From NCBI RefSeq assembly GCF_000633355.1, contig NZ_AYMQ01000081.1, positions 1 through 34,885 of the forward strand: a stretch of 34,885 nucleotides of DNA, read 5' to 3'. This document shows positions 4,355 through 20,490 of this stretch, in pieces. The position numbers were made by a program, and so were the translations under genes. The notes below the pieces were generated by a model. That model was given only the letters and a program-made list of their open reading frames with translations. It made no database searches and had not been told where the DNA came from. Source of the DNA: Serratia sp. H1w (lineage in GTDB: Bacteria; Pseudomonadota; Gammaproteobacteria; Enterobacterales; Enterobacteriaceae). The first letter of the stretch is position 1. The number at the start of each line of letters is the position of its first letter.

Positions 4355-5137
4355 CTACGGCATCTGCGGGATGTTCTTGCCAGAGTAAATTTCCCTCATC
4401 TCTTTGCACAACAGATTGGTGATCCTTTGCTGCTTTGCCTTGCTGAAGGCTTCCGGCCGGACGTTGAACAGGTAATGGTTCAAGTCGAACGCTTTCATCA
4501 ACATCTTGGTATGGAAGATATTTTCCTGATAAACGTTGACATCCACCAAGTGGTATAACGACTTTATCTCTGCCGAGATGAAATTTTGGATCGAATTGAT
4601 CTCATGATCGATGTAATGCTTTACGCCATTCACATCCCGGGTAAAACCTCTGATCAGATAATCTATCGTGACAATATCCGACTCTAACTGATGGATCAGG
4701 TAGTCAAGGGCCTTCAGTGGCGAAATTACCCCGCAGGTTGAAACTTCAATATCGGCGCGAAAGGTGCAAATCCCACTGCCAGGATGACTTTCCGGGTAGG
4801 TGTGTACGCAGATATGGCTTTTGTCCAAATGCGCCACGACGGAGTCTGACTGGGGTGCCTTAACGCTGCTTTGGCCAATAGGCTCCTCACTGGCGAGGAT
4901 CGCCACGCTGGCACCTTGGGGTTCATAGTCCTGATGAGCAATATTCAGCACATTGGCACCAATCAGCGAACAGGTTTCGACCAGGAGCTCAGTCAGCCGG
5001 TTGGCATTGTATTGCTCGTCTATATAGGCAATATAGCTGTCGCGCTCTGCCACCGTTTCAGCGTAACAAATATCGTAGATACAAAAACTCAGGCTTTTGG
5101 TCAGATTATTGAATCCATGCAGCTTTAACCCAGGCAA
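4355..5137 (-). CDS. speD: S-adenosylmethionine decarboxylase proenzyme
   Basis: The 260-residue protein matches E. coli SpeD along its whole length, starting [19 protein letters not shown] and ending [11 protein letters not shown]. It decarboxylates S-adenosylmethionine to give the aminopropyl donor for spermidine. The self-cleavage site that makes the pyruvoyl group is visible as Lys106-Ser107-His108, followed by [11 protein letters not shown]. The start is a TTG with GGGAGG about ten bases upstream; no ATG fits. It lies 23 bases after the YncE-like gene in the same direction, so it is the last gene of a siderophore operon. Its usual partner speE is absent. This suggests either a second, pathway-dedicated copy or a relocated only copy. 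Confidence 0.95.
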
Positions 5138-5160
5138 TTTACTTTACCTCCCTTGTCCCT

Positions 5161-6303
5161 TCACTCGCGCAATGACATACGGGCAACACATTCCGGCAGC
5201 CCTGCCTTAATCATCGTTTCATCGTTTTTAACGGTAATAAACAGGCTCTGTTTATCTCCATCAAATGCCAGGCTATTGGGATGCGGGGCCATCGCTACGG
5301 TCTGGACCAGGTGATAATTGGCAGTATCAAACACCGTAAGCGTCCCTTCACCTTTCTCGACGCGAATCCCCTTGCGATTGGCGACGTAAAGCCTTTGCCG
5401 CTCGCTATCCCACACCAGGCCGATCGGTACTTCATCCGTTGCCATACGCGCGATAACCTCGCCACTCTCCGCATTCAGAACGAAAACCTGATGACCCGCG
5501 CTGCGAGCAATATAATCTCGTGCCAGATGGTTGTTGCGCCAATCACTGCGGTCAATGCCCTGATCGACGCCAAAGATGCGGTTTTGCTGCGGGTCATAGA
5601 CCATATTCAATAACTGATCGACGTCGATCTCCTTGCGGGAAACGATCTCCAGACTATCTGGATCAACGACAAACAGTTGGCCCTGCATGTTAGAGACAAA
5701 GACACGACGCCCGGTTTCGTCCAGCGTAATCCCCACCACGTTATAACCGAAACCGTGAATGATTTTCTCCAGCCTGCGCTTACGCGTATCCACCACAAAC
5801 AGCACGCTATCGATACCTAGCCCCAGCCCCGGCAAGAACAACCGCTCGCTGCGCGGATCGAAAACCAGCTCCCGCAGCTTCCAGGGAAAGCCTTCGCTCA
5901 CGCCAAAGCGCTCCAACTCTCGCATCAAGAACGCCTGCCGCGCTCCGACAATTCCCTCCCGTTGGTACAGGTCATGGAAAGTAATCTCCTCCATCAGCGG
6001 AATGGTCGCAATGAGCCGATTGGCAGCGATATCCACCACGGCGGCGGTACCGTTGAACCCTTGTGACAGGTAAAGATGCCCACGGCGATCGTCCAGGGCT
6101 ACGCCAAACCCTTTGACCGGTAACGGGATCGTTACCTCAACGGTCAAGGTCTGCGGGTTGATCCGCAGTATGCTGGATTGCCCTTCATCCTCCCAATCGG
6201 GAGAGCTGACAAATAACGCCTGTTGCGAGGCGCTATAAACCAGCTCTACCAACGTTTTGGCCGGGTAGATACGTTGAATATCGGTCAACTGCGGCTGTTT
6301 CAT
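5161..6303 (-). CDS. YncE-like beta-propeller protein without a signal peptide
   Basis: The 380-residue protein is built of repeated blades of the YncE/YVTN type, for example VVDIAANRLIATIPL, FVVDPDSLEIVSRKEID, FVLNAESGEVIARMA and TVFDTANYHLVQTV. Its ATG overlaps the stop of the upstream NRPS gene by four bases (ATGA), so the two are translationally coupled. E. coli YncE is an iron-repressed periplasmic protein encoded beside the TonB receptor YncD, which fits this setting. The version here starts MKQPQLTDIQRIYPAK with no signal peptide and the overlap leaves no room for one, so it should be cytoplasmic. It could act on the siderophore or its iron complex inside the cell. No catalytic residues can be assigned. 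Confidence 0.8.
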   Translation of the reverse strand: MKQPQLTDIQRIYPAKTLVELVYSASQQALFVSSPDWEDEGQSSILRINPQTLTVEVTIPLPVKGFGVALDDRRGHLYLSQGFNGTAAVVDIAANRLIATIPLMEEITFHDLYQREGIVGARQAFLMRELERFGVSEGFPWKLRELVFDPRSERLFLPGLGLGIDSVLFVVDTRKRRLEKIIHGFGYNVVGITLDETGRRVFVSNMQGQLFVVDPDSLEIVSRKEIDVDQLLNMVYDPQQNRIFGVDQGIDRSDWRNNHLARDYIARSAGHQVFVLNAESGEVIARMATDEVPIGLVWDSERQRLYVANRKGIRVEKGEGTLTVFDTANYHLVQTVAMAPHPNSLAFDGDKQSLFITVKNDETMIKAGLPECVARMSLRE

Positions 6304-8510
6304 AGCATGCTCCTGTTATGGCGTAGCGCAGCAAGACATACCGGCGGTTGGCCCACCGAGCTGGCCATAACGCCAAACAACTGACGCGTCGTTTGGATGA
6401 TTTGTTGCACCTGCGCGTATGAATAGCGATCGGTGCGATAACTCATCATGACACGCACGGCAGATTCACCGTCGATCTGCTCTTCCATCACCTCAAACTG
6501 CAACCCCAGCACCGACTCTGTCTTTGCGGGATCGATCTGGCGGAAGCGGACCAACTGACCATCGGCCAAGCTAAAAGCCCCATTGAGCTTATTTTTGGCA
6601 TGGAGTTGAATGAAGACCTCAAACATATGGCTGTCAGGCGGTGCGTTGTCACCAAACAGCCCTTCTTCCACCAGATCGATCGGAATGTCGGTAAACGGCA
6701 TCGAATCATTTATCTGCCGTTTTACATCATCGATCAGCGCATCGAGCGTGGTGTCATCGGCAAAAACGATGCGATGGGCGACCACGGTGGTGAAGTACCC
6801 GATGGTATCGAAAAACTGCGCGTCATTGCGTCCAGAGGCAGAAGTGCCAATGACCAGTTCCTTCGCGCCGCCAAGCAGGTGCAACGCCGCAGCAATCCCG
6901 CTGTAAACCACGTTAAACAGCGACGCGCCCTGCTGTTTGGCCAGGCGGTAAAGCCCATAGGAAATCGCATGTTCAAGCTTGAACTCGACCCAATTACCGC
7001 TGAGATCCGACAGGGTGGTTTGCTCAGTGGTTGAGAAAATCGGTGCCGCTGGCGGTGCGTTGCGCAGACGTTCCAACCAGAAGGCAAGATGGCGATCGTT
7101 AAACCCGGCTTGCTGCTGTTGGATCGCGAAGGCGTGGAAGGGGACGGGAATCTGCTGCCACTGCGGAGCTAAGCCGGCGGAGCGGCTGGCCATCGCCTGA
7201 GCCAGCTCATCCATCAGGATATTCACCGACCACTCGTCCAACACGATATGGTGGAACAGCAGCGAAACCACCTGTTGGTGATTTTCTTCATCTCTCAAGA
7301 AGGTGATGCGTACCGGTAATTCATCGTCTAGCGCAAAGTGGTGTTCAGCGGCGCGCTGTAACGCGTCACGCAGCGGAATACCCTGCGGCTGCGAGTGCCA
7401 GAACCATTCATACTGAGACAGCATTTCCGCGGGGATAACCTGCTGATAAACCTCATCGGAGATAGCGACAAACAGGGTGCGCAGGGCCGGATGGCGCAGC
7501 AAAATATCCTGAAAAGCCAGGAAGAACAGCCCTTCATCAATCGGATCGATAAAGCGTAGAGCAAAGGGGATGTTGAAGGCCTCGCCGCAACCAAGCGCCC
7601 GATAGATTTTCCACAAGGAGCGTTGCGCCAGCGATAAAGGAGCCTGCGGGCTTAGCGAGGCCAAACTCTCCGTTGGCTTAGCCGATGAAGCAGGCAAAGG
7701 ATTAGCGATGCGGGCGTAATGCGCCAGTTGAGCCGCGCTGGGGTGGCTGAAGAGGTCGTTAATATTGATCTCAAGCTGATGCTGGCTCTTCAGGCGGCCA
7801 ATAACGCGTGTGGCAATCAACGAGTGCCCGCCGAAATCGAAGAAGTCATCATTTTCTCCCATCGTAGGCGCTGCGAGCGCCTCCTGAAAAGCGTGCAGGA
7901 TATGTTGTCGTATCTCACCCTCTGACGGTAATGCGAGCGGAGTAATAATGATGTCTTCCAAATGCAGCGACGGTGTTAAATCGAGGCTTGACGAACGGCT
8001 CTTCAGTGGCACAGATGCTGTTGGGGTAACCTGCTGCTGATACAGTGCACTGACGGTATGCAGGATATCTTGCCAACTCAGCGTCGCAGACAAAATGCGA
8101 TGCACCGCAATCCCCAATACGCCTTCCCTATCGGCGCGAAACAGCATAAAACGCAGCGGTGGCGCTTGCTCCAGATCGAAAGGCGTTTCTTTGGTGTGCA
8201 GCAGAGCACCAATGGCTTCCCGAGGATAGTGGATTGTCTGAATTGCCACCGGAGGCTGTGAGCGCGGCTGGTTGTAGCGCACCAGTCCGTTATCACTATA
8301 AACATAACGGGCATTTGCTCCGGGCAATTGCCGTTGGCTTTGTTCCAGAGCGCGGATCAATCGCTCATAATCCACGGCACCGGTTAACTGCCAGGCCTGC
8401 ACCTGTTGGCCCTCTCCATGCAGTTGTTGCTGATGTTCGAACCAGGCCTGCTGTTCGAAATCGCTGACCGCCTCTTCATCACCGGTAAATTCGCTAACAA
8501 TACTGTTCAT
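6300..8510 (-). CDS. Siderophore NRPS, condensation remnant - carrier - condensation (VibF C-terminal half-like)
   Basis: The 736-residue protein has three parts. Residues ~1-170 resemble only the N-lobe of a condensation domain; the HHxxxDG site is degraded to VHRILSA (137-142), so it is probably inactive. Residues ~195-270 are a carrier domain with the phosphopantetheine serine in DFGGHSL (Ser230). Residues ~290-736 are a full condensation domain with HHIVLDE (His420-Asp425; the usual final Gly is Glu). This is the order of the second half of VibF (C1-PCP-C2), where C2 transfers the aryl-oxazoline to a polyamine amine and no thioesterase is needed. The ATG at 8510 is preferred over the upstream TTG because GGGAGAAG lies just before it. 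It lies downstream of the receptor gene and is coupled to the YncE-like gene. It probably works with the Cy-Cy-A protein encoded at 14185-18528. Confidence 0.85.
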   Translation of the reverse strand: MNSIVSEFTGDEEAVSDFEQQAWFEHQQQLHGEGQQVQAWQLTGAVDYERLIRALEQSQRQLPGANARYVYSDNGLVRYNQPRSQPPVAIQTIHYPREAIGALLHTKETPFDLEQAPPLRFMLFRADREGVLGIAVHRILSATLSWQDILHTVSALYQQQVTPTASVPLKSRSSSLDLTPSLHLEDIIITPLALPSEGEIRQHILHAFQEALAAPTMGENDDFFDFGGHSLIATRVIGRLKSQHQLEININDLFSHPSAAQLAHYARIANPLPASSAKPTESLASLSPQAPLSLAQRSLWKIYRALGCGEAFNIPFALRFIDPIDEGLFFLAFQDILLRHPALRTLFVAISDEVYQQVIPAEMLSQYEWFWHSQPQGIPLRDALQRAAEHHFALDDELPVRITFLRDEENHQQVVSLLFHHIVLDEWSVNILMDELAQAMASRSAGLAPQWQQIPVPFHAFAIQQQQAGFNDRHLAFWLERLRNAPPAAPIFSTTEQTTLSDLSGNWVEFKLEHAISYGLYRLAKQQGASLFNVVYSGIAAALHLLGGAKELVIGTSASGRNDAQFFDTIGYFTTVVAHRIVFADDTTLDALIDDVKRQINDSMPFTDIPIDLVEEGLFGDNAPPDSHMFEVFIQLHAKNKLNGAFSLADGQLVRFRQIDPAKTESVLGLQFEVMEEQIDGESAVRVMMSYRTDRYSYAQVQQIIQTTRQLFGVMASSVGQPPVCLAALRHNRSML

Positions 8511-8595
8511 ATTCTTCTCCCAGGGCAAAAGCCTGCTTCACCAGCCATTGGCGCTAAATAACTGTGTTTAATATCGCTACACCCCAAACCCGAGA

Positions 8596-8703
8596 CAGGC
8601 GGGGAGCATGCAGGTTAGCCGACCGTTGAGCGCAGGGATGCGCGATTTCGAGCCTCCATGGACGGATTTACGGCGTGTCGGCGTTCTGCATGCTCCCCAC
8701 CTG
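8596..8703. repeat. Palindromic intergenic element (~108 bp) between receptor and NRPS genes
   Basis: The 18-base ends, 8596-8613 and 8686-8703, are inverted copies matching at 17 of 18 positions. Between them lie shorter sequences (around CGCAGGGATGCGCG and CATGGACGGATTTACGG) that look like intergenic repeat elements of enterobacteria. The element carries no ORF and could form a long hairpin in the transcript between the receptor and the downstream NRPS. It may be a MITE-like insertion or a processing or attenuation site. Confidence 0.65.
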
Positions 8704-8735
8704 TAGCACTATTAAGTGCAGCTATTTAGATAGCC

Positions 8736-10835
8736 TTAGAAATCCAATTGAACGACAGCACCCACCAGGCGCGGCCGCTGAATAACCGCCGTCGAAACGT
8801 CGTTATTCATCACCATGATGCGTTTGTCCGAATCAAACAGGTTTTGCGCAAACACGCTGACGCGTCCTTGCTTGAAGGTGTAAGCCAACTGCATATTGGC
8901 AATCGCTTTGGAGGGGATTTTCCCGCGTTGATCGTTGTCGTATTGGGAATAATAGGTATCGGAATACGTCACGTTGCCGCTTAATTCCAACCCGGGCATA
9001 AGATTATATTTCGCCCCCATATTGGCGGTGACTGCTGGAGCGCGCGGTAATTCATGCCCATCGATCCTGCTGTCGGAGAATTTCTTGATTTTGGTTTTTA
9101 ATAACCCCACCGAGCTATTCAACTCAAAATTCCCCGTCGGTTTCCAGATAGCCCCAAGCTCAGCGCCATAGGTTTCGACCTTATCTGCATTGCGGATCAT
9201 CATTGAACTCATGTTGGAGTCCAGATAATACGGCAACTGCATGTCTTTGTAGTCGTTATAGAACAGGTTGGTGATGATCTCGATATCAAGATCCCTGATG
9301 CCATGGCGGCTATACAGCTCATAGTTCCAGACATATTCGGGATCGTAGGTATAGTTGATCAACGGCGCGGAAAACGTCATCCCAGCACCACCGCCGTTAT
9401 AGCCGCGGGCCACTTTGGCGCCAAAGGTTTGTCGCGATGAAGGCTTCCACGCGACATCCAGTTTGGGCAGGAACACATCCCAGGTTTCATCGAAATCGAC
9501 CTTACGCGCCTTGCCGCCTTTGCGTTGACGGTGCTCTCTCTCCACCCGGCTGGCGACGGTAATATCAATATGGGGTAACGCAGCCCAGGTCATTTCACCA
9601 AAGGCGGCGTAGGTATCTGTTTTATCCTTGAACGGGCTACCGCCTGGAAACAGGTTCACAAACTCATCCTGTGAGGCATGGAAGTAACGGGCACCAACCA
9701 GACCGCGCCAACGATCGTTTGGTGTACCAAACAGCACCAGCGGCTCTACTTGCCACTCTTTCCCTTCAATGTCGGCCCACGGCAGCGTTTCGACGGTGCG
9801 GCGATGGTTATTAAAATCAGTATAAATCAGCTTGTTCTGGACGCTTAACTGCTCCGAAGGCTCCCAGGCGATATCCCAGATACCACTGGTGGATTGGGTC
9901 TCAATAACCGGGCGACGCCGGTCAAAACGGGCACTGACATGGTTGGCCGGGCTTAACGCTTCATTCTGCGGCGCTTGGCTCTCATAGTGATTTATCGCAA
10001 GCTTGGTGGTGAGATCGCGCAGCCCGGCCGGGTTGTACAACAGCTTTCCACGGACGTTGGTCACTTCGATTTCACGCGGATTACCCACCGGATCGTAGGA
10101 GATCAGATCGACAAAACTCTCACGCCGCTGGCGATCGGCGCTCAGACGAAACGCCAGTTGATCCTCAACAATCGGTCCCGATAGCATGGCGGAAGTTTGA
10201 GTCGTGTCCTGATTACCGCCCCCGGCCCTGACCGCCGACGTCCAGTCAAACGTCGGATCCTTGCTGCTCATCACCACGGCACCAGCAATCGCGTTGCGCC
10301 CCTGAATGTAGTTCTGCGGCCCTCGATAGACTTCGACCCGTTCCATATCCCACAGGGATTGCGGCCCGACGGCCAGTTCGTTGTAGGTAAGGGAACGCCC
10401 ATCCAATGAGAGGTTCATGCGTGGCCGCGTACCGCTCAGGAAGGCGTTGGCACCATTGGCTGGCCCTGAGCCATCAATGCCACGAATGGTTGGGATATCG
10501 TTGCCAATACCGGTATCCACGACGTTGACCGTCATTTTTAATAAGTCAGACACCTGCGCTGCACCGGGCAGAGAATCGATCCTCACATCATCAAATACCT
10601 CAATACTTGAGCTGGTATCGTAAATAGTGCGCCTTACTTTTTCGCCGGTGACAATAATGGTGTCTGGCTCGTTATTCTCACTGCGTATTGGGGGGGCATC
10701 GGCAGCAATAGCCTCTGCGGCAACAAAGACACATAACCCCAGAACGGCAGAGGGAATATCATATTTTTCAGTAATACGGTGAGGCAGGTTACCTAGTGGA
10801 GCCGAGATTTTCTTATCACCCTTTAGTTCGCTCAT
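8736..10835 (-). CDS. TonB-dependent outer-membrane ferric-siderophore receptor
   Basis: The 699-residue protein carries a TonB-box-like DTIIVTGEKV near residue 60. A plug domain follows (PTIRGIDGSG, VEVYRGPQNYIQGRNAIAGAV), then a long beta-barrel ending in the expected terminal phenylalanine (GAVVQLDF). It should import the iron complex of the siderophore made by the adjacent NRPS genes. The ATG at 10835 has AGGAG eight bases upstream and is preferred over an upstream TTG. The N-terminus has about 30 polar residues before a hydrophobic core (SAVLGLCVFVAAEAIAADA), a long n-region for a signal peptide. A Fur-box-like site lies upstream at 10992-11010. It heads the minus-strand run receptor, NRPS, YncE-like, speD, though a 225-base gap with a palindromic repeat follows it. 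Confidence 0.93.
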   Translation of the reverse strand: MSELKGDKKISAPLGNLPHRITEKYDIPSAVLGLCVFVAAEAIAADAPPIRSENNEPDTIIVTGEKVRRTIYDTSSSIEVFDDVRIDSLPGAAQVSDLLKMTVNVVDTGIGNDIPTIRGIDGSGPANGANAFLSGTRPRMNLSLDGRSLTYNELAVGPQSLWDMERVEVYRGPQNYIQGRNAIAGAVVMSSKDPTFDWTSAVRAGGGNQDTTQTSAMLSGPIVEDQLAFRLSADRQRRESFVDLISYDPVGNPREIEVTNVRGKLLYNPAGLRDLTTKLAINHYESQAPQNEALSPANHVSARFDRRRPVIETQSTSGIWDIAWEPSEQLSVQNKLIYTDFNNHRRTVETLPWADIEGKEWQVEPLVLFGTPNDRWRGLVGARYFHASQDEFVNLFPGGSPFKDKTDTYAAFGEMTWAALPHIDITVASRVEREHRQRKGGKARKVDFDETWDVFLPKLDVAWKPSSRQTFGAKVARGYNGGGAGMTFSAPLINYTYDPEYVWNYELYSRHGIRDLDIEIITNLFYNDYKDMQLPYYLDSNMSSMMIRNADKVETYGAELGAIWKPTGNFELNSSVGLLKTKIKKFSDSRIDGHELPRAPAVTANMGAKYNLMPGLELSGNVTYSDTYYSQYDNDQRGKIPSKAIANMQLAYTFKQGRVSVFAQNLFDSDKRIMVMNNDVSTAVIQRPRLVGAVVQLDF

Positions 10836-10991
10836 TGATTTCTCCTTTGCCAAATGCGCACTAAATTTTTAGTTTTTCAACTGAGCGACAAAGAACACAC
10901 TGCTTAATAGCTGGCCTTTACGGCCTTATTATTCGTCATCGACTGGCATTTCCCGAGGTACGTCAACCAGAAGGCAAACACATTTATAATC

Positions 10992-11010
10992 ACAAACGAT
11001 AATCATTTAC
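10992..11010. promoter_or_regulatory. Fur box upstream of the TonB receptor
   Basis: The core GATAATCATT matches positions 7-16 of the 19-base Fur consensus, and 13 of 19 positions match overall by hand count. It sits about 160 bases upstream of the receptor start in the gap between the receptor and the FepG-like gene. It predicts repression by iron-loaded Fur. Confidence 0.65.
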
Positions 11011-11062
11011 AAAATTGAATGCAAACCAATTTGATCAAAAATGCGACAAACATCCCCAAGCC

Positions 11063-12049
11063 TTAACGGGGGCCACCGCGCAGCAACAGAACCAATAAAT
11101 ATCCACCACCTATCACCCCAGTCATTAATCCAACCGGCATCGTCAGCCCTGATGGCTGTATCTGAGCGGCAATGTCAGCCCCTAACAGTAGGCATCCGCC
11201 CACCAGCCCCGCGCTGACCACCGGCAGGTTTGGGCTACGTGTCAGGCGCATTGCCAACTGTGGTGCCATGAGTGCGATAAAAGCGATTGGCCCCGCAGCA
11301 CTGGTTGCCACCGCAGCCAGGATCACCCCACAAAACGTCATGACCTTACGGATCAGCTGTACACGTACCCCCAGTTGGTTGGCAACCTCATCCCCCATTC
11401 TTATGATGTTCTGCTCCCTGGCACACATCAGCACCACCGGCAATAACAACGCAATGCTGGTAGCCACCGGGATAACGTGCAGCCAGTTTCGTCCCTGAGT
11501 GGTCCCCGCCAGCCATAGCGTAGCCATCACGGCATTATCAATATCGCCCTTAACCAACAACAGGCCATTCAAGGCACTGAGTACCGCGCCGACGCCAATG
11601 CCCATCAATATCAGGCGGTATCCCTTTACCACACCGCGATGGTGGGCTAACCAGTAGACCAACAGTGATGTTGCCAACCCCCCGACCACTGCCGACAACA
11701 CAATCGCTATAGCGTTACCGTTGAGCAGTACAATCTGCACAATCGCACCGGTTGCCGCACCGGTGGTAAAGCCGATAACGTCTGGCGACCCAAGCGCATT
11801 ACGCGATACCGACTGAAAAATCGCCCCAGAAATGCCCAAAGCGCAGCCCACTAAAATCGCGGTCAACACACGCGGCAGGCGGATCGCTCTGACAATTTGC
11901 TGCGCCATGGGGTTGCCCTCCCCGCTTATGGCCTGCAAAACGCTCGATACCGGCAGCGTAAAGCGCCCTACCGTCAGCGCGAACATGGCAGCAACCAGCA
12001 GCAGAGAGACCAAAACCAGGCACACTAGCACCGCCCTGTTGGCGCTCAT
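11063..12049 (-). CDS. FepG-like ferric-siderophore ABC transporter permease
   Basis: The 328-residue protein is a FecCD-family inner-membrane permease with about nine to ten hydrophobic helices. The motif SGAIFQSVSRNALGSPDVIGF and a late AAGPIAFIALMAPQLA are close to those of FepG. The start at 12049 is chosen because its ATG overlaps the upstream permease stop by four bases (ATGA). An earlier in-frame start would intrude further into that gene. It should pair with the FepD-like subunit to move the ferric siderophore from periplasm to cytoplasm. No ATPase gene follows; the region after it is the receptor promoter. Confidence 0.9.
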   Translation of the reverse strand: MSANRAVLVCLVLVSLLLVAAMFALTVGRFTLPVSSVLQAISGEGNPMAQQIVRAIRLPRVLTAILVGCALGISGAIFQSVSRNALGSPDVIGFTTGAATGAIVQIVLLNGNAIAIVLSAVVGGLATSLLVYWLAHHRGVVKGYRLILMGIGVGAVLSALNGLLLVKGDIDNAVMATLWLAGTTQGRNWLHVIPVATSIALLLPVVLMCAREQNIIRMGDEVANQLGVRVQLIRKVMTFCGVILAAVATSAAGPIAFIALMAPQLAMRLTRSPNLPVVSAGLVGGCLLLGADIAAQIQPSGLTMPVGLMTGVIGGGYLLVLLLRGGPR

Positions 12050-13041
12050 ATCCGCTCCCCCTGCCAACGCTTCACCAACCACACAAAGCAGGGGCCACCG
12101 ATCAACGCCACCATGATGCCAACGCTGACCTCACCGGGATAACCAATCACGCGTCCCAGAATATCGGCCAGCAACACTACCACGGCAGAAAACAACATGG
12201 CCCAGGGCAATAGCGCTCGATGCTGTGATCCGGCAACGGCACGGGCAAAGTGCGGCGCGGTCAGGCCAACAAAGACGACTGGCCCAGCGGCTGCCGTGGC
12301 CGCACCGGCCAGGATCACGATAATTAACGCGGACATCGCCAACAGCCAGCGTGGATTAACGCCGAGCGCCTGGCCGCTCTCCGAGCCGAGCGCCGCGATG
12401 TCCAACATTTTGCTGCCTGCCAGCGCCAGCAATAGACCCACGCCGACCAACATGGCAACCGGAAGCAGTACGTCGAATCCTCTTCCCTGTAACGAGCCAA
12501 TCACCCAGTGCCGAAAGCGATCGAACGCCTGCGTGTCACTATTGATGATGACAAGCTGCGTCAGGCTAAGCAGCACAATGGTTAGCGCCGCCCCGGCCAA
12601 CACAACCTTCACCGGATTATTGCCATCAATGCCACCAATCAGTAACACCGCAATGCTGACCAGCGCCGCACCAGCCATACCAAACCACATCGTGCTAAAG
12701 ACATCCGTCACGTTAAACAGCCCAATCGACAGGACGATCGCCAATGTGGCACCGGCATTCACACCGAGTAAGCCAGGATCGGCCAGAGGGTTACGGGTAA
12801 GCGTCTGCATAATGACACCGGCCGCGCCAAGTGCCGCGCCAACCACCATCGCTAATAAGGTGCGCGGCAACCGCAGATAGCAAACCAGCAAATGCTCGCT
12901 ATTGAGGGGATCAAACTGCGTAAGCGCCTGCCAAACCACCGCAGGAGCAATGGCACGAGCACCGAAATAGAGGCTGAAGAAGCCGAGAGCCAACAGCAAA
13001 ACCAGGCCTGGGATCAGGCCAGCCTGTCGCCAAGCAAGCAT
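12046..13041 (-). CDS. FepD-like ferric-siderophore ABC transporter permease
   Basis: The 331-residue FecCD-family permease has the hallmark MQTLTRNPLADPGLLGVNAG, nearly identical to FepD, and AAAGPVVFVGLTAPHFAR. The start at 13041 (MLAWRQAGL) lies immediately after the stop of the binding-protein gene, separated by one base, which fixes it. The longer open frame upstream only overlaps that gene. Multiple hydrophobic helices place it in the inner membrane. It is the middle gene of a three-gene binding protein-permease-permease operon that lacks the ATPase. Confidence 0.9.
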   Translation of the reverse strand: MLAWRQAGLIPGLVLLLALGFFSLYFGARAIAPAVVWQALTQFDPLNSEHLLVCYLRLPRTLLAMVVGAALGAAGVIMQTLTRNPLADPGLLGVNAGATLAIVLSIGLFNVTDVFSTMWFGMAGAALVSIAVLLIGGIDGNNPVKVVLAGAALTIVLLSLTQLVIINSDTQAFDRFRHWVIGSLQGRGFDVLLPVAMLVGVGLLLALAGSKMLDIAALGSESGQALGVNPRWLLAMSALIIVILAGAATAAAGPVVFVGLTAPHFARAVAGSQHRALLPWAMLFSAVVVLLADILGRVIGYPGEVSVGIMVALIGGPCFVWLVKRWQGERI

Positions 13042-13042
13042 T

Positions 13043-13996
13043 TCACCGCTCCTGCATTGGGGGGTTGGGAAAATGACGGACAATTTCTGCCACCATCTCA
13101 CTGGCACTGTAGTAATCCACCCGGAACGCATGTGCACCCAAGCTGAAAACCCTGCGTTGTTGTACCGAAGGCAAACGCTGGAGCAGCGGGTCATGCAAAA
13201 ATTCGTTGATCCTGACATCACCTGCGCTCAGCAGAAACGTGGTGCCAGCCGTTAACTGCGTCAGATTCTCATATTCGGCCCAGATAAAGTCACCGGAGCG
13301 GGTAAGATTGCTTTGCCATGCCGGATTGGGTGCTTCGATCGAAAACCCCAGCGACGCCAGTAAACGAGCATGGACGCTCTCGGGTGTCGCAATGGGGTTA
13401 ACCGTTCCCGGGCCGTTAAAATTGATAATATTGGCTTGCCCGTCAGGAATGCGGATCTGCTGGCGGGCATTGGCAAGTCGCGCGTCAAAACCCGCAATAC
13501 GTTGTTCAACCTGCGCCTCAAGGCCCAGCGCGGTTCCCAGCTCACGGGCCAACGCTTGCCAGGTCTGGTTGCCGTAATTGACGATAACCACCGGTGCAAT
13601 AGCCCGTAACTCCGCCAGATGGGCAAAGGATGAATCCGCGCCATTGATTGAGACGATGATTAAATCAGGCGCTATGGCATAGACCTGCTCAAGATCGATG
13701 CTGCCAGCGGGCCAAATCTTGGCGATCTTCCGCTCTTCAGCCACCGCGGCCCACTGACCGAAGAATTGACCGTTCACCGCAGTCGCGCTGGCGACAACCG
13801 GCGCATCGATCGCCAGTAGCGTTCCGGTGACGCTGACGGAGGTAGAGAGGATACGCAAGGGAGGCGCCAGGATCTGGGTTACAGAACCCTCCGCGTTGTG
13901 AAACTCCCGTGGCCAGCCTTGCGCAAAGCTTTGGCTACAGGCCATAATCCAGGAAAATAGCAATAAAACCATCCATTTATCCAGTAAAAACCTCAT
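13043..13996 (-). CDS. FepB-like periplasmic ferric-siderophore binding protein
   Basis: The 317-residue protein has a signal peptide (MVLLLFSWIMACSQSFAQG). The body closely follows FepB, with STSVSVTGTLLAIDAPVVAS, APDLIIVSINGADS, and a C-terminal FRVDYYSASEM (FRLDYYSA in FepB). FepB binds ferric enterobactin-type catecholates in the periplasm, so the ligand here is probably a catecholate too. The ATG has AAGGAG upstream. It is the first gene of the transport operon and reads away from the Cy-Cy-A NRPS, sharing a 188-base intergenic region that contains a Fur-box-like site. Confidence 0.9.
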   Translation of the reverse strand: MRFLLDKWMVLLLFSWIMACSQSFAQGWPREFHNAEGSVTQILAPPLRILSTSVSVTGTLLAIDAPVVASATAVNGQFFGQWAAVAEERKIAKIWPAGSIDLEQVYAIAPDLIIVSINGADSSFAHLAELRAIAPVVIVNYGNQTWQALARELGTALGLEAQVEQRIAGFDARLANARQQIRIPDGQANIINFNGPGTVNPIATPESVHARLLASLGFSIEAPNPAWQSNLTRSGDFIWAEYENLTQLTAGTTFLLSAGDVRINEFLHDPLLQRLPSVQQRRVFSLGAHAFRVDYYSASEMVAEIVRHFPNPPMQER

Positions 13997-14108
13997 CTGC
14001 TGCTTGCTCCTTGTGCATGACTCCGAAGTGCGATATCAACGACCGACGGCGTGAACCCATAGGCTTCACCTAACCTTACTCTGCTCAATGTATCGCCAAC
14101 AACATAAA

Positions 14109-14127
14109 AGTAATAATTTTCATTCGC
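14109..14127. promoter_or_regulatory. Fur box in the divergent promoter of the FepB-like and Cy-Cy-A NRPS genes
   Basis: Read on the minus strand this site matches the 19-base Fur consensus at 13 positions by hand count, around GAATGAAAATTATTA. It lies in the 188-base region between two divergent genes, so one site could control both transport and synthesis. Confidence 0.6.
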
Positions 14128-14184
14128 ATTAAGGTTTGCTATATATTTATACGGCTTCCGTGGGCAATTCAGGAACGATATGCA

Positions 14185-17100
14185 ATGAAATCATTGACTC
14201 CAATGCAGGCGGCTTCATGGGTAGGCAAGCAATCTCCGCAGGCATTAGGCGGCGTTGCCGCGCATTTGTACGCAGAATTCGATGGCGCGATCACCGACAT
14301 CCCCCGCTTTCGTCACGCAGTGGACGCTCTCTATCATGCCAACCCAATGCTGCGTCTGCATGTCACCGCCGAAGGGCAACAGCATGTGGTTGCCCATCAC
14401 CCGCCGCCGGACGTTGATGACTTTTGCCACCACTCACCAGCGGAAGTACAACGGTTGCTGGCTGACAAGCGGCGGCGGATGGAGAACCAACAGTTGCTGC
14501 GGGATAAAGGCTATCCCTGCGAAATCAGCCTGACGTTATTGCCCGGCCAGGCCAGCCGGCTGCATATCGATCTGGATATGATCGCTGCCGATGCCATCTC
14601 CTTTCGCATCGTGGTGGAAACTCTCGCCCGCTTCTACCAACAGCCACCGCCTTACTGCGCCCCAGTGATGGAGGTGGCCTGGTTTCGCTACCTGACTCAG
14701 CGCACCAGCGATCCTCTGCTGCTCAGCGCCAGAGAGCGGGATCGCACCTGGTGGCGGCAGCGTTTATCCGACATACCCCCTGCTCCCCCCTTAGCGGGTA
14801 CGGACGGGCTATGTCAGACCCGCAGAATGGCAATCCCGCTGACACCTCAAACCAGCCATGCCTTGCAGAACTGCGCGCGCGAGCACCATCTGACGCTAAG
14901 CTCGCTGTTCCTCGCGTTGTTCACCCTGACAATGGTTGAAGGCTTCCAGCAGCCCGCGTTGCGTATCAATGTACCGACTTTTTTCCGTGATCCAGAGATA
15001 GCAGGCGCTGCTGACATCGTCGGTGATTTTTCCGATCTGTTATTATTCAGTGCCGATGTACACCCCAACCAAACGCTGCTGCATCATTGCCAGCGCACCA
15101 TGGCGCAGTTGCACACAATCATCAGCCATGGCGGCTATTCCGGAGTGAGCGTGATGCGCGATCTTTCGCGTCTGCATGGCCAGTTGCAATATTCGCCCAT
15201 CGTCTTTACCGCCGGGTTCGGCATTCCCGGAGGCGTATTGTTCTCTGAGCGGGTCGACAAACAGTTGGGTGAGTTGGGGTGGGTTATCTCTCAAGGGCCG
15301 CAGGTCGCGTTAGACGCGCAAGTGGCCTGGATTGGCGATCAAATACTGATCAACTGGGACGTCCGTGAAGACGCATTTCCCCCTGGCCAACTGCATCAGC
15401 TTTTTACACGCTTTCATGCGTTCGCCGAACGCTTGGCTGTCGTACCACAGCACCTTCATGACAACGTTTCCCACTGGTTGGCGGTGCCGCACCGGGCAGA
15501 GGGAATGGGGAAACCATTAACGGCGCTCCAAGTGGCCTATCTGCTGGGAAGAGGTGAACAATGGCCACTCGGTGGCGTTGCCATGCACGATTTCAGAACC
15601 TTTCGGGGGCACATCGATCCAGCGCATTTTCGCCGTCGGCTGGCAGAGTTAGTCAATCACTTCGCAGCGTTGCGCACCCGGATCGATACACAAACCCAGC
15701 GGCAGCACATCCTGCCTGATCTGGAACCTCATCTGGAAGAGATCGACCTGTGCGATGCCAGTGAAGAAGAGGCGGCGAAGCAAATACGTCAGCTACAACA
15801 GCATTACCAACAACTATGCCACGATCCGTCCTCGCCTCCCTGGCGGATCATTCTGATTACTTTACCCGGCGCAACGGAGTCCCTGATATTCACCAGCTTC
15901 GATGCACTGATCCTCGACGGGCAAGGGATCTCACATATTATCGCCCGACTATTTGATCGGCAGCCACTTAAGGCATATGCGCATGACCAAGCGCCACTGC
16001 GAGAAGATGAAAAACAGCGGGAACGGGCAAAAGCGTGGTGGCATGACAAACTGGCACAGGCCGTTACGCCTTCCCCGCTTCCCTGGCAGCAACCTTTGGG
16101 CGAGATCGTACATCCCCGCTGGCGGCGCGAACAACAAACCCTAGATGCCAGTCACCTGAAGCAACTCACGCGCCTTGGCACGTCCCAGGGATTGTTTGCC
16201 AACACGACGCTGTCAGCTATCGTGCTCGACACGCTGGCGCTGTGGTCGGAAGATGAGGCGCTCACAGTCGGCATACCTGTTGCCTTCCCGGCCAAAGAGG
16301 GGCAACCCGCCAATCGATCAACGTTTATTGCCATTCACTACAGCCGTCTTCGTCAGACATTTGACGACAGTGCCCAACGTTTGCAGGAAGATATTCTCGG
16401 CGGATTGCAAAACCTTGCCTGGTCGGGTGTCGATCTGGCTCGTCAGTTAACACCGCGAGCTGCACGTGCACCGGCGCTCTCGGTGATCCTGACCAACTGC
16501 CTGAACTGGGAAACATTACCAGCCAACGCACCAATCCGTGCCGAAGGTGGCCTGACCCAAACGCCGCAGGTCGCTCTGGATATTCGCCTGATGCATGATG
16601 AGCAGCGTAATCTGCTGCTGATTGCCGATTATGTTGAGCAGGCGCTGGCACCCGGGCAGGTCAGCGTTATGCTAAGTGCCATCCATCAACGCATGCTGCG
16701 TATGATCTCTCAAGGTTCGCTGGATGTTCCCGCCCGCGAGGCGATGAATTACCCGCATTACCGGGCTAATACGCCCATTGGCACCGCCGTGAGCGATGAT
16801 TTTCTGGGCCGTATCGCAGAAAATCTCTATTCCGGGGCTCGCGATGGGGTGGCGGTGATCTGTGGGGAGCAACAATTACGCTGGCAGGCGCTGGGTGAAC
16901 TCGTCGCCAGCATGGCCAACGGACTGCTCGCGCGTCAGTTGGGTGTGGAAAGCGTGGTAGCGATTTACCTGCCGCGTAGCCTGGAACATATCGCTATCTC
17001 GCTAGCCTGCGCGCTATTAGGGATAGTCCGGGTGCCGATAGATATCAATTCGCCAGCGGAACGGACGCGTTATTTACTGGAAAATTGTCAGCCACAGCTG

Positions 17101-18528
17101 GTGATAGGTGAGGAAGACGCTGCGCTCCCTGGCTCAGTTACGCCTGAAGCGCTGAAATCCACTGATGTCTGTCCACCTCGGTTTAACGCTCAGAGCGACA
17201 GCAATCAGCCCGCCTATTATCTCTATACCTCCGGCACCACGGGCAAGCCAAAGTGCGTCGTACTGAATAACCGGGCGACGGCCAACGTGCTTGGGCAAAC
17301 CCTTGCGCACTGGCAGATTACCGAACGGGATGTCTTTATCTCAGTGACACCGTTGCACCATGATATGTCGGTCTTTGACGTGTTTGCCTCGCTCAGCGTT
17401 GGGGCAACGCTAGTGCTACCCGCCAAGTGCGAGGAGAAAGACGCCATCAGTTGGGGCCGCCTGGTTGAACAACACCGGGTCACGCTATGGTGTTCCGTGC
17501 CGGCGATCCTGGAAATGCTGCTGGATTGTGCGACTCCAAGCCAGCTCTCTTCGCTGCGGCTAGTGGCTCAGGGCGGTGATTACATTAAACCGGCAACGAT
17601 CCAGCGCTTACGGGCAAGGCATCCTCATCTGCGGCTGATTTCACTCGGCGGCCCGACGGAAACAACCATCTGGAGTATCTGGCACGAGATCACTGCCAAC
17701 GACGTGGCCCCCATTCCCTATGGCACACCGCTGGTGGGCAATCAGTATTTCATCTGCCATGACAGCGGTGAACACTGTCCTTGCGGCGTATCAGGGCGTA
17801 TCCATACTGCCGGAGTTAATCTGGCCTGTGGCTATCTGGAAAATGGGGTCTTGGTGCAGCACGACTTTGTTAACATTATGACGCCAGAAGGCGTTAGCGA
17901 ACGAACGTTCCGCAGCGGGGATATTGGCTATTACCGGCCAGATGGCGTCATCATGTTTGCCAACCGCATTAATGGCTATGTCAAGATTCGCGGCGTGCGG
18001 GTTTCACTGCCGGAAATCGAGGAGGCATTGCGCCAACATCCAGCCATTGACGATATTGTGGTGCTTGATTACGCGGTGGACGACACAGAAGATAAATCGC
18101 TGGGCGCAGTCTATTTATCCTGTGAGCAAACGCCGCTCAACGCGTCGGAGCTACGCAACTTTGCGCGGCGCTATTTGCCTGGAACTCACATCCCTGGCCG
18201 CTTCATACGGCAAACTCACTTCCCCCTCTCGGCGAATGGCAAAGTCGATCGCCATGCGCTGCGTAGCCAACTCGAGCAATCTCATTCAACAACGCCAACC
18301 CCCTTTACGGCACCACAGCAAAAAGTGCTGGAGATCTATAGCTCCGTGATGGGTCAGCCGTTACGGCCTGAATGGCATCAACAAACCGCGTTTCTCGCCA
18401 TGGGTCTGAAATTCAGCCATCTGCCAACGCTGGCAGAGAAACTCAACTCGGCATTTAGCGTCTCGCTGTCAGTGGCAGCGTTGATAAAGTGCAAAAACGC
18501 CGCAGACGTTTGTGCGCTGCTGCAATAA
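14185..18528 (+). CDS. Siderophore NRPS, Cy-Cy-A with a degenerate C-terminal carrier (VibF N-terminal half-like)
   Basis: The 1447-residue protein has two heterocyclization domains. The first (~1-430) contains the DxxxxD motif as DMIAAD; the second begins near residue 442 (LTALQVAYLLGRGEQ) and contains DALILD. An adenylation domain spans ~870-1370 with YTSGTTGKPK, LGGPTETTIW, FRSGDIGYYRPDG, GYVKIRGVRVSLPEIE and the catalytic lysine in ANGKVDR. HDMSVFD supplies the aspartate that binds an amino-acid amino group, so it loads an amino acid and not an aryl acid. Threonine is likely by analogy with VibF. The last ~70 residues look like a carrier, but the serine position reads GLKFSH, with Phe1410 where Ser is expected. 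The A3 motif has Cys in place of the usual Gly (KPKC). The aryl-oxazoline would then be built on the carrier of the protein encoded at 6300-8510. Confidence 0.88.
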   Translation: MKSLTPMQAASWVGKQSPQALGGVAAHLYAEFDGAITDIPRFRHAVDALYHANPMLRLHVTAEGQQHVVAHHPPPDVDDFCHHSPAEVQRLLADKRRRMENQQLLRDKGYPCEISLTLLPGQASRLHIDLDMIAADAISFRIVVETLARFYQQPPPYCAPVMEVAWFRYLTQRTSDPLLLSARERDRTWWRQRLSDIPPAPPLAGTDGLCQTRRMAIPLTPQTSHALQNCAREHHLTLSSLFLALFTLTMVEGFQQPALRINVPTFFRDPEIAGAADIVGDFSDLLLFSADVHPNQTLLHHCQRTMAQLHTIISHGGYSGVSVMRDLSRLHGQLQYSPIVFTAGFGIPGGVLFSERVDKQLGELGWVISQGPQVALDAQVAWIGDQILINWDVREDAFPPGQLHQLFTRFHAFAERLAVVPQHLHDNVSHWLAVPHRAEGMGKPLTALQVAYLLGRGEQWPLGGVAMHDFRTFRGHIDPAHFRRRLAELVNHFAALRTRIDTQTQRQHILPDLEPHLEEIDLCDASEEEAAKQIRQLQQHYQQLCHDPSSPPWRIILITLPGATESLIFTSFDALILDGQGISHIIARLFDRQPLKAYAHDQAPLREDEKQRERAKAWWHDKLAQAVTPSPLPWQQPLGEIVHPRWRREQQTLDASHLKQLTRLGTSQGLFANTTLSAIVLDTLALWSEDEALTVGIPVAFPAKEGQPANRSTFIAIHYSRLRQTFDDSAQRLQEDILGGLQNLAWSGVDLARQLTPRAARAPALSVILTNCLNWETLPANAPIRAEGGLTQTPQVALDIRLMHDEQRNLLLIADYVEQALAPGQVSVMLSAIHQRMLRMISQGSLDVPAREAMNYPHYRANTPIGTAVSDDFLGRIAENLYSGARDGVAVICGEQQLRWQALGELVASMANGLLARQLGVESVVAIYLPRSLEHIAISLACALLGIVRVPIDINSPAERTRYLLENCQPQLVIGEEDAALPGSVTPEALKSTDVCPPRFNAQSDSNQPAYYLYTSGTTGKPKCVVLNNRATANVLGQTLAHWQITERDVFISVTPLHHDMSVFDVFASLSVGATLVLPAKCEEKDAISWGRLVEQHRVTLWCSVPAILEMLLDCATPSQLSSLRLVAQGGDYIKPATIQRLRARHPHLRLISLGGPTETTIWSIWHEITANDVAPIPYGTPLVGNQYFICHDSGEHCPCGVSGRIHTAGVNLACGYLENGVLVQHDFVNIMTPEGVSERTFRSGDIGYYRPDGVIMFANRINGYVKIRGVRVSLPEIEEALRQHPAIDDIVVLDYAVDDTEDKSLGAVYLSCEQTPLNASELRNFARRYLPGTHIPGRFIRQTHFPLSANGKVDRHALRSQLEQSHSTTPTPFTAPQQKVLEIYSSVMGQPLRPEWHQQTAFLAMGLKFSHLPTLAEKLNSAFSVSLSVAALIKCKNAADVCALLQ

Positions 18529-18538
18529 ATAGCCTATC

Positions 18539-18566
18539 TCCGCCAACAGTGAACACTATTGGCGGA
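18539..18566. terminator. Stem-loop between convergent NRPS and condensation-enzyme genes
   Basis: A 13-base stem (one non-Watson-Crick position) closes a two-base loop: 18539-18551 pairs with 18554-18566. It lies between the two convergent stops and could end transcription from both sides. No strong T-run follows on either strand, so it may act mainly as a 3' end stabiliser. Confidence 0.55.
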
Positions 18567-18571
18567 AGACC

Positions 18572-19891
18572 CTATGGGTTTAGCAGCGGGTAAACCGGTT
18601 GCTGCCCTTCGTGCATCATCGCCCTGCGCAGGAAGTTGTCCAGATGGATGAACATCTCCTCAACGTCCTGCCCGGCATATATCTCCGGATCGGCATCAAT
18701 ATCGATGTGCAACTCACTGGCATCCGTGCGGCCACGCCAGGTAATGTTAAAACCATCCCCAGGGCCGCTTGCCATCACTTCGCGTTCGACTGCACAACCG
18801 GCAAACTGCGGAGGATCGAAGGGGAGCACATTGATTAACGGCGAGAAGAAATAGCGCGTCCCCTTCCCTAGTCCCTGATCGGTGGCCAAGGTTTCAATGC
18901 GATAGCGTCCGTGAGCCCGCAGGTCACGCAACGTTTTCGCGATGCGTTTGACATAGTCGGCCACCCGTTCCTGCGGTTCGATTTGAATAAAAAGCGGCAG
19001 AATATTCACCGCCAGCGCCGGCACACAGGCTGCGACCTTGCCCCGCCGATTCATCACTGGCACCCAGATGGGATGAACCTCTGCGCAATCCTCGCCATAA
19101 AGCTGAAACGTCAGCCAGGCCGCGGAAAGCGCCAGCAGCAAATCCGGCCAGCCGATGCCACAATATTCGGCGAAAGCGCTCAGTTGCTGGCTAAAATGGA
19201 TCGGTAGCATCGCTTCACTGTGCAGGCACTCCGCACCGTAGTCCTCTCCTCCCTTTTGCAATACGGGCAGCGAAGGCCCATCAGTCACATACCGCCGCCA
19301 ATACTCCGCGTCCTGCCGAGATTTTTCGCTATCGGCGTACTGCTGCTCTTCGGCCAGAAAAGCATAAAACGCGCCGAATGGCTGACTAGCGACTGTTTTT
19401 TGCCGCAGAGTGCGATAAAGCTCGGCGAGGCGATGTTCAATCAGCGCCATGCCAAAGCCATCAATAATGATGTGATGCGCCCGGATATAAACCGTGTAAT
19501 GCCCGGGAGAAAAGCGGAACAGCCAAACGGCCGCCAGCGGTTGACTCAACAAGTTGAGCTGGCCCTCGATATCGGCCTGCATCATCAATGTGGCAACGTC
19601 AGCCTGCTGTAACTCAATCAGGCGTACTTGAGGACAGCGTTGGGGATTGCAGCGCTGTAGCGGTAAAGCCTCGCGATCGGGCAGTTGAAACTGGATGGCA
19701 AAAACATCGGTTTCAACCGTCACCTGTTGCAACGCCGCCAACAATGCCTGTTCATCCAATTCACCGCGTAGTGTAATACAGTGGGCAACGGTCGATACGG
19801 GTTGATGCGGGTGAAAGGTAAACTCTTCCCAGAAATCAAATTGCGCTGGCGTCAGTGGCATCCAGCGGAGTGACTGAACAGTTTCCAACAT
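18572..19891 (-). CDS. Stand-alone condensation enzyme (VibH-like) of siderophore synthesis
   Basis: The 439-residue protein is a single condensation domain. It begins LTPAQFDFWEEF, like the first domain of EntF and like VibH, and has an intact active site HHIIIDG (His139-140, Asp144). No carrier or adenylation domain follows. VibH joins 2,3-dihydroxybenzoate, held on an aryl carrier, to the free polyamine norspermidine; the same role with another amine is likely here. The start at 19891 is supported by AAGGGATGG just upstream. A longer frame upstream has no such site. A strong Fur-box-like sequence lies 160-180 bases upstream. The aryl carrier and activating enzyme (EntB/EntE type) are not in the window. 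Confidence 0.87.
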   Translation of the reverse strand: MLETVQSLRWMPLTPAQFDFWEEFTFHPHQPVSTVAHCITLRGELDEQALLAALQQVTVETDVFAIQFQLPDREALPLQRCNPQRCPQVRLIELQQADVATLMMQADIEGQLNLLSQPLAAVWLFRFSPGHYTVYIRAHHIIIDGFGMALIEHRLAELYRTLRQKTVASQPFGAFYAFLAEEQQYADSEKSRQDAEYWRRYVTDGPSLPVLQKGGEDYGAECLHSEAMLPIHFSQQLSAFAEYCGIGWPDLLLALSAAWLTFQLYGEDCAEVHPIWVPVMNRRGKVAACVPALAVNILPLFIQIEPQERVADYVKRIAKTLRDLRAHGRYRIETLATDQGLGKGTRYFFSPLINVLPFDPPQFAGCAVEREVMASGPGDGFNITWRGRTDASELHIDIDADPEIYAGQDVEEMFIHLDNFLRRAMMHEGQQPVYPLLNP

Positions 19892-20053: not shown

Positions 20054-20072
20054 TTAAATAATAATCATTATC
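20054..20072. promoter_or_regulatory. Fur box upstream of the stand-alone condensation gene
   Basis: The stretch ATAATCATTATC is a perfect end-half of the Fur consensus, and 15 of 19 positions match by hand count. This is the best of the three Fur-like sites. It lies in the ~307-base gap between the condensation gene and tRNA-Asp. Apart from this site and the tRNA terminator I see nothing else in that gap. Confidence 0.75.
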
Positions 20073-20160
20073 ATTGATGAATGAAATAGCTTTAATACGC
20101 TTTCAGCTAACGCTGACAATGGGGGAAAACCGAAGGGGGGAGGATGCTGCAGAAAAGACG

Positions 20161-20198: not shown

Positions 20199-20275
20199 TG
20201 GCGGAACGGACGGGGCTCGAACCCGCGACCCCCTGCGTGACAGGCAGGTATTCTAACCAACTGAACTACCGCTCC
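20199..20275 (-). tRNA. aspV: tRNA-Asp (GTC), aspV position
   Basis: The 77-base gene read on the minus strand starts GGAGCGGTAGTTCAG, has the anticodon GTC in CCTGTCACG, and ends CGTTCCGCCA with CCA encoded. It matches E. coli tRNA-Asp almost base for base. It sits beside dnaQ as aspV does in E. coli. A second identical copy lies at 34613-34689. Confidence 0.97.
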
Positions 20276-20336: not shown

Positions 20337-20397
20337 CGTCTTTTCTTATAAAAAGAGTCGTTTGCACAGTTTTTCAACGAACCTTAACTCGAGCGCA

Positions 20398-20487
20398 GCA
20401 TGCGGCGCCCCGACGTAGTGCACACATAACCAGCCAACGACGCTGAACTGGCTCCCTCGCCCTTTGGGAGAGGGTTGGGGTGAGGGG
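20398..20487. repeat. Dispersed intergenic repeat element, copy 1
   Basis: This ~90-base sequence contains CCCTCGCCCTTTGGGAGAGG and GGTTGGGGTGAGGGG at one end and GCATGCGGCGCC at the other. It recurs in inverted orientation at 34353-34443 with high similarity. It ends three bases from the dnaQ stop codon. It is non-coding and looks like a short mobile or REP-type element. Confidence 0.75.
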
Positions 20488-20490
20488 ACG

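Follow-up and report, generated by a model that had tools for sequence, protein, structure and literature searches.

Which siderophore is made by the split, VibF-like assembly line beside a tRNA-Asp gene in Serratia sp. H1w, and why does the same locus end in a gene for S-adenosylmethionine decarboxylase (SpeD)? The locus was analysed in a DNA stretch of 34,885 nucleotides (positions 1 to 34,885 of contig NZ_AYMQ01000081.1, assembly GCF_000633355.1), referred to here as the window; the genome is referred to as G000. The answer proposed, which is considered reasonably probable, is a horizontally acquired and probably iron-regulated islet for making and recovering a polyamine siderophore with catechol and oxazoline groups, akin to vibriobactin and serratiochelin, with spermidine as its likeliest backbone and the second SpeD as a captured enzyme. 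In its chemistry the locus is an ordinary member of its family, to which the second SpeD gene (speD2) is a real and unusual addition.

The second S-adenosylmethionine decarboxylase

The gene on which the argument turns is the following.

4355..5137, minus strand: speD2, second S-adenosylmethionine decarboxylase, E. coli type (TIGR03331, 434.7 bits)

The SpeD2 score lies well above the TIGR03331 equivalog cut-off of 255.8, and the active-site motif is intact. G000 encodes two SpeD proteins, and the housekeeping copy, on contig C125, adjoins the only SpeE gene. In a sample of 392 genomes of the family, 11 of which match the siderophore cluster (E <= 1e-100), SpeD was matched in 220 (E <= 1e-60). 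Two SpeD matches occurred only in G000, its congener G337 and G026, the last being weak (best E 4.4e-71). A second strong SpeD is therefore found only in G000 and G337, both of which carry the locus; of the seven genomes of the host genus, the two with the VibH gene are also the two with the second SpeD. The other nine cluster-bearing genomes of the sample, all from other genera, have one SpeD each. Among the 11 genomes of a partly overlapping set, that of the named loci described below, eight have one SpeD and three have none. A tblastn search of 24 cluster or flank pieces detected SpeD in two, those of the window and G337. In PLSDB, 15 records match SpeD (best 76.2%), and the two E. coli plasmids that carry the cluster are not among them. 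No report of an S-adenosylmethionine decarboxylase in a siderophore locus was recognized among the literature matches listed, which came mostly from outside subscription journals.

The two cluster SpeD proteins are 82.5% identical and form one clade (100/99). Their ratio of nonsynonymous to synonymous substitution (dN/dS, calculated with an NG86 script) is 0.158, as against 0.031 for the housekeeping pair of the same genomes, and the cluster copies are under purifying selection. A stretch of 13 residues, which we take to be the catalytic site, is unchanged in both.

Several observations weigh against a siderophore role for SpeD2. If occurrences were independent, the chance of both strong cases falling among the 11 cluster-bearing genomes would be 0.0023; yet G000 and G337 share genus and locus, so SpeD2 represents one evolutionary event in one genus. 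No aminopropyltransferase gene was found in the cluster. Finally, speD2 is the last gene of the islet before the flank, where a passenger could sit, and the other clusters of the subtype lack speD. That speD2 is such a passenger, or a decaying duplicate with no part in siderophore synthesis, is nevertheless most improbable, as its frame is intact, it is under purifying selection across two species and it has its own ribosome site (a TTG start behind GGGAGG), 23 bp past the stop of the yncE-like gene. Furthermore, the corresponding empty site of the congener G078 contains no speD in the stretch read, so speD2 came with or into the islet.

It is also very unlikely that SpeD2 has changed substrate, or that decarboxylated S-adenosylmethionine is put to a non-polyamine use such as siderophore aminopropylation. 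Fourteen of the 191 columns that are invariant in 17 housekeeping SpeD proteins are changed or deleted in both cluster copies, the cluster pair evolves faster than the housekeeping pair, and the title of one cited reference mentions a polyamine-independent role of the enzyme. Nonetheless, SpeD2 remains 75–79% identical to the housekeeping enzymes compared, its 13-residue stretch is unchanged, six of the 14 changes lie in a single loop (positions 85–98), and the cluster has no transferase gene. The reading of SpeD2 as a decarboxylase captured for precursor supply is preferred.

The split synthetase and the proposed assembly

The remaining genes of the islet and its border are listed below.

5161..6303, minus strand: YncE-like beta-propeller gene (NF052280, 173.5 bits, under the cut-off of 400)
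6300..8528, minus strand: SchF3-like synthetase with first condensation domain (C1) remnant, peptidyl carrier protein (PCP; GGHSL) and second condensation domain (C2; HHIVLDE) (Pfam, alignment and an AlphaFold model that is weak overall)
8736..10853, minus strand: TonB-dependent siderophore receptor (TIGR01783, 232.8 bits, cut-off 223.5)
11063..12082, minus strand: FepG-type FecCD permease (mechanical open reading frame limits; PF01032; NF007759, 290.7 bits, under the cut-off of 422)
12046..13221, minus strand: FepD-type FecCD permease (mechanical open reading frame limits; PF01032; NF007760, 255.7 bits, under the cut-off of 428)
13043..13996, minus strand: FepB-type ferric-catecholate binding protein (NF008200, 348.8 bits, cut-off 205)
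14185..18528, plus strand: SchF1F2-like synthetase with two cyclization domains (Cy1, Cy2), an adenylation (A) domain and a carrier-like tail without serine (domain profiles, alignment)
18572..19891, minus strand (listed open reading frame to 19996): VibH/SchH-like amide synthase (HHIIIDG; phmmer to VibH 1l5a)
20199..20275, minus strand: tRNA-Asp gene (aspV), islet border (ARAGORN; empty-site comparison)

Read leftwards from aspV, the order is VibH-like, Cy-Cy-A, FepB, FepD and FepG types, receptor, C1 remnant-PCP-C2 (C-PCP-C), YncE-like and SpeD. The real start of the FepD-type permease probably lies further inside its frame, and the C-PCP-C protein likely starts at the ATG at 8510 rather than the TTG at 8528. 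The YncE-like gene overlaps the C-PCP-C gene by 4 bp. The Serratia, Citrobacter, G042, G337 and E. coli loci viewed have it next to the C-PCP-C gene, and it did not turn up in the pieces viewed from Yoonia, Pelagimonas, G195 and G138.

The first-pass annotation had described this locus as a VibF divided between opposite strands, and domain searches and motifs bear this out. The plus-strand protein contains two cyclization domains with DxxxxD, read here as the motif of such domains, followed by an A domain, as in synthetases of the vibriobactin/serratiochelin type. The minus-strand protein contains the C1 remnant, a carrier with its serine and a final C domain. The single six-domain chain of VibF is not matched, since the window has two proteins on opposite strands. 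The split is not a novelty in itself: SchF1F2F3 of serratiochelin synthesis, the VibF counterpart, is described as already split (PMC5635690), and the Serratia loci share the strand layout of the window. A separate VibH-like enzyme had also been predicted. Among solved structures, VibH (1l5a) was the top phmmer match in the Protein Data Bank (238.3 bits, E 1.6e-69), the next structure scoring 138.8, and HHIIIDG in the translation fits the HHIxxDG motif of free-standing, VibH-type amide synthases (PMC7962358).

The aryl-acid genes on which the first-pass annotation depended are present in G000, in an ent cluster on contig C67. This cluster encodes EntA, EntE, an isochorismatase with a carrier domain, FepB, EntS, two FecCD permeases, an ABC ATPase, Fes and FepA. 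EntC scored 523 bits, below the equivalog cut-off of 624 and above the isochorismate synthase cut-off, and EntF is a full-length match of 1887 bits, below the curated 2400. As far as computation reached, neither of the outcomes that would have told against the first-pass annotation was seen, these being Cy and C domains of another siderophore class or a genome without aryl-acid genes.

The following steps are predicted from sequence. 2,3-Dihydroxybenzoate (DHB) from the ent genes would be loaded on the EntB-type aryl carrier, and the VibH homologue would attach one DHB to a free polyamine. Threonine would be activated by the plus-strand A domain and held in trans by the minus-strand PCP; Cy2 and Cy1 would couple it to DHB and close the methyloxazoline, which C2 of the minus-strand protein would pass to the DHB-polyamine. 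In VibF, Cy2 condenses, Cy1 cyclizes and C2 forms the final amides (PMC5577590). The receptor and FepBDG would import the iron complex; the locus contains no ATPase gene, so FepC of the ent cluster probably serves.

Loading in trans is suggested by the carrier-like tail of the Cy-Cy-A protein, which lacks a serine at the expected place in all 12 readable proteins (of 13 aligned, the G138 row being too short; the register is a matter of judgement). A serine one position further on, in three of the 12 including that of the window, counts against this interpretation, but it is not conserved. Without a serine in the tail, threonine is probably carried by the C-PCP-C protein; in the Serratia system, threonine is placed on SchF3 (PMC7962358). 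Pocket residues of the A domain, read with a position map that we assume to be correct, first suggested cysteine activation. This was rejected, as the window and four aligned Serratia proteins have identical pocket residues and the Serratia system uses threonine.

The HHxxxDG site of C1, read by eye from the alignment, is degraded in 12 of the 12 rows that have the region; the Paracoccus row has no C1. The window, for instance, has HRILSAT, S. plymuthica HDILAET and Citrobacter HDILSAS. The residues ahead of the PCP motif number 235 in the window, 242 in G337, 236 in Yoonia and 205 in Pelagimonas, and 404–576 in eight E. coli, Citrobacter, G042, Serratia and G195 rows (open frames with unfixed starts). 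A full-length inactive C1 is therefore absent from the window, in which the N-terminal part alone is left. The AlphaFold model of the C-PCP-C protein, built from seven sequences, is weak overall (mean predicted local distance difference test score, pLDDT, 63.2). Within it, the C1 remnant (residues 21–160) has block pLDDT values of 62–88, with 13 of 14 blocks at or above 72, and its alternating strands and helices are read as an N-lobe. The C1 of VibF has no catalytic activity and strengthens binding between monomers (PMC5577590). The locus offers a natural example of C1 shortening in a VibF-type enzyme.

Relationship to known systems and evidence for horizontal acquisition

The first-pass annotation had proposed either the serratiochelin locus or a related one with another product. 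Its kinship claim is well founded, given the related split synthetase and strand layout in Serratia, but identity with the serratiochelin locus does not hold, as the locus clades with Citrobacter, G042 and the E. coli plasmids and G000 has no Dat above the cut-off. The second half was the better part of the guess, and speD2, which had gone unnamed, is the main reason.

A scan of named genomes gave 11 loci: seven from Serratia, one from Citrobacter amalonaticus S646, two from Yoonia and one from Pelagimonas. In a Cy2-A tree of 19 rows, from which the E. coli chromosomal copy was left out and which carries a long-branch warning elsewhere, the window and G337 group with G042, Citrobacter and two E. 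coli plasmids (100/100), separately from a clade of seven Serratia rows and G195 (100/98). Cy2-A identity is about 65% to the Citrobacter and E. coli clusters and about 55% to those of Serratia. By these comparisons the locus is a sister subtype, distinct from the serratiochelin locus. The housekeeping SpeD of G000, by contrast, shares 95–96% identity with Serratia and 87.7% with Citrobacter; the affinities of the locus differ from those of its host, which points to horizontal acquisition.

S. plymuthica makes serratiochelins and photobactin via SchF1F2F3, SchH and an ent-like cluster (PMC7962358). Its serratiochelin cluster p2 resembles the window in the split VibF, the YncE-like gene beside F3 and DHB from an ent-type cluster elsewhere; F3 and the receptor lie on the SchH strand, with F1F2 opposite. 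In Serratia, however, Cy1 and Cy2-A occupy separate frames in four of five genomes (G170 has one frame of 1604 residues), whereas the window has one chain. The subtype of the window also has fepBDG between the receptor and Cy-Cy-A genes, whereas no match to fepBDG was found in any of the seven named Serratia loci. The E. coli, C. amalonaticus S646 and G042 clusters share with the window the one-chain Cy-Cy-A, fepBDG, receptor, C-PCP-C and YncE-like genes, but have a longer C1 (404–441 residues ahead of the PCP motif, as against 235) and a locus without SpeD. In the vibriobactin system of Vibrio cholerae, VibF (compared by description rather than alignment) and VibH similarly comprise Cy-Cy-A, an inactive C1, PCP, C2 and a free-standing amide synthase; VibF is one chain, whereas the window has two proteins and a C1 that has lost most of its length.

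The islet occupies the interval between aspV and fimbrial genes. In G078 this interval is empty, aspV and its terminator being followed directly by the fimbrial genes. In G337 the islet again lies between the two, and alignment to G078 resumes beyond it; in G403 aspV is followed by the region that G078 holds past the fimbriae. The window has two further genes separating the islet from the fimbrial genes, one of the AraC family and one PEBP-like (named by eye). No copies of the tRNA ends (16–30 exact bases) that could serve as an attachment repeat were found in the left 20.3 kb of the window or in the G337 flank. Past the fimbrial genes that adjoin the islet site, G078 and G337 (L100, L061) have a TonB receptor gene and genes for aerobactin-type synthesis, identified by eye.

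Close matches to the Cy-Cy-A gene of the subtype occur in 13 of 5426 complete E. coli genomes, at eight places on plasmids and five on chromosomes. Eight stand at 99% or more of the plasmid query and five at 80–90%. The whole locus was viewed in three E. coli records (L083, L084, L107). A Cy2-A match in G138 (G138:C15:267595-270750, L032) contains one internal TGA, from either a decaying cluster or an assembly error.

The likely polyamine backbone and proposed precursor capture

SpeD supplies the aminopropyl donor for spermidine (PMC8503589). Its presence in the locus favours spermidine over putrescine and suggests a siderophore built on spermidine or a related polyamine. The second SpeD would raise decarboxylated S-adenosylmethionine, which the single SpeE would turn to spermidine, the likeliest backbone, under the same iron control as the rest of the islet. 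Dat, of the 1,3-diaminopropane supply on which serratiochelin synthesis draws, was found above the cut-off in seven of 14 genomes, namely all six Serratia and G337, and not in G000, Citrobacter, G042, G195, G138, G078 or G273. The best match in G000 scored 257 bits against a cut-off of 401.6; a diaminopropane backbone is therefore unlikely there, and putrescine and spermidine remain. The Serratia genomes searched (strain V4 not among them) have one SpeD each and Dat, whereas G000 has two SpeD and Dat below the cut-off. In G337, dat adjoins a pyridoxal decarboxylase gene taken as ddc. As this genome has both dat and the second SpeD gene, speD2 as a simple replacement of diaminopropane synthesis was rejected.

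A putrescine-based, photobactin-like product or a diaminopropane-based, serratiochelin-like one, with speD2 refilling a spermidine pool when iron starvation drains putrescine, is a less likely but serious alternative. In S. plymuthica, SchH accepts diaminopropane as well as putrescine (PMC7962358). Moreover, SpeD is missing from the sister clusters of Citrobacter, G042 and E. coli, the Citrobacter and G042 genomes encode a single SpeD in total, and G337 retains dat. This alternative leaves unexplained why speD was captured rather than a putrescine-making gene, and it is at odds with the lack of Dat above the cut-off in G000. SpeD2 is read as captured precursor supply favouring a spermidine backbone. 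VibH-family amide synthases can take several polyamines, and sequence has not shown which one is used (PMC7962358); a captured polyamine gateway gene is a readable clue to the backbone.

The backbone proposed here is that of the spermidine catecholates agrobactin and parabactin. Related synthetases occur in Agrobacterium (Cy2-A identity 48%) and Paracoccus denitrificans (46%), whose loci are presumed to make agrobactin or parabactin. The Agrobacterium plasmid locus has its own DHB genes, and the Paracoccus synthetase is one frame of 1917 residues without C1. Amine supply inside siderophore clusters has been described for other enzymes, namely the lysine decarboxylase DesA and odc for alcaligin.

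3-Deoxy-D-arabino-heptulosonate 7-phosphate (DAHP) synthase opens the route to chorismate and DHB. An AroFGH-type DAHP synthase gene adjoins the VibH gene in E. coli T309.Ta3 (L107:20989-22023) and C. amalonaticus S646 (L008:15959-16978). The two enzymes are 70.9% identical, that of E. coli being above the TIGR00034 cut-off; within the 300 bp ahead of the E. coli gene, the top Fur-like site scores 16/19 (without a resampling control). No DAHP synthase was found in the other loci compared, including the window and both E. coli plasmids, with only about 3 kb on that side in G042. We read this as two branches of one subtype each having gained the gateway enzyme for one building block. The more specific proposal, that SpeD2 is a dedicated, iron-responsive enzyme for an agrobactin-like spermidine catecholate while sister loci captured DAHP synthase, whichever gateway limits the host, is put forward tentatively, as somewhat short of an even chance. 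Counting against precursor supply are the two E. coli plasmid clusters, which have neither SpeD nor DAHP synthase, and the joint presence of the second SpeD and dat in G337. If the proposal is true, one siderophore locus takes up whichever precursor gateway enzyme is limiting in each host. Comparison of the speD-bearing and DAHP-synthase-bearing sister loci makes precursor capture in siderophore islands testable.

Probable iron control

Candidate Fur sites, scored against a consensus presumed to be that of Fur and controlled by first-order resampling, lie in three promoter intervals (strand not assigned).

20054..20078: site resembling a Fur box, ahead of the VibH gene (15/19, with another match of 14/19 starting 6 bp further; P 0.002)
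14103..14127: weak resemblance to a Fur box, between fepB and Cy-Cy-A (13/19, with another match 6 bp further; P 0.064)
10992..11016: weak resemblance to a Fur box, ahead of the receptor gene (13/19, with another match 6 bp further; P 0.053)

A 15/19 site also lies upstream of VibH in G337, in the matching interval. A score of 13/19 is reached at 16 positions of the window on either strand, seven of which fall in these three intervals, each with a pair 6 bp apart. Control of the whole islet is called into question by the other nine, which lie outside the intervals (none is paired), and by the 207 bp ahead of the C-PCP-C, yncE-like and speD2 genes, where no Fur box was found (best 11/19, P 0.31); the site upstream of VibH is the sole convincing candidate. 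The islet is taken to be probably iron-regulated.

Repeats near the locus

A palindromic element (window 8595–8704), with 19-nt arms that are 95% complementary and 72 nt apart, separates the receptor gene from the C-PCP-C gene; the corresponding stretch of G337 is only about 43 bp long. The sequence between aspV and dnaQ includes an interspersed repeat (window 20381–20489), for which about 40 matches are listed elsewhere in G000.

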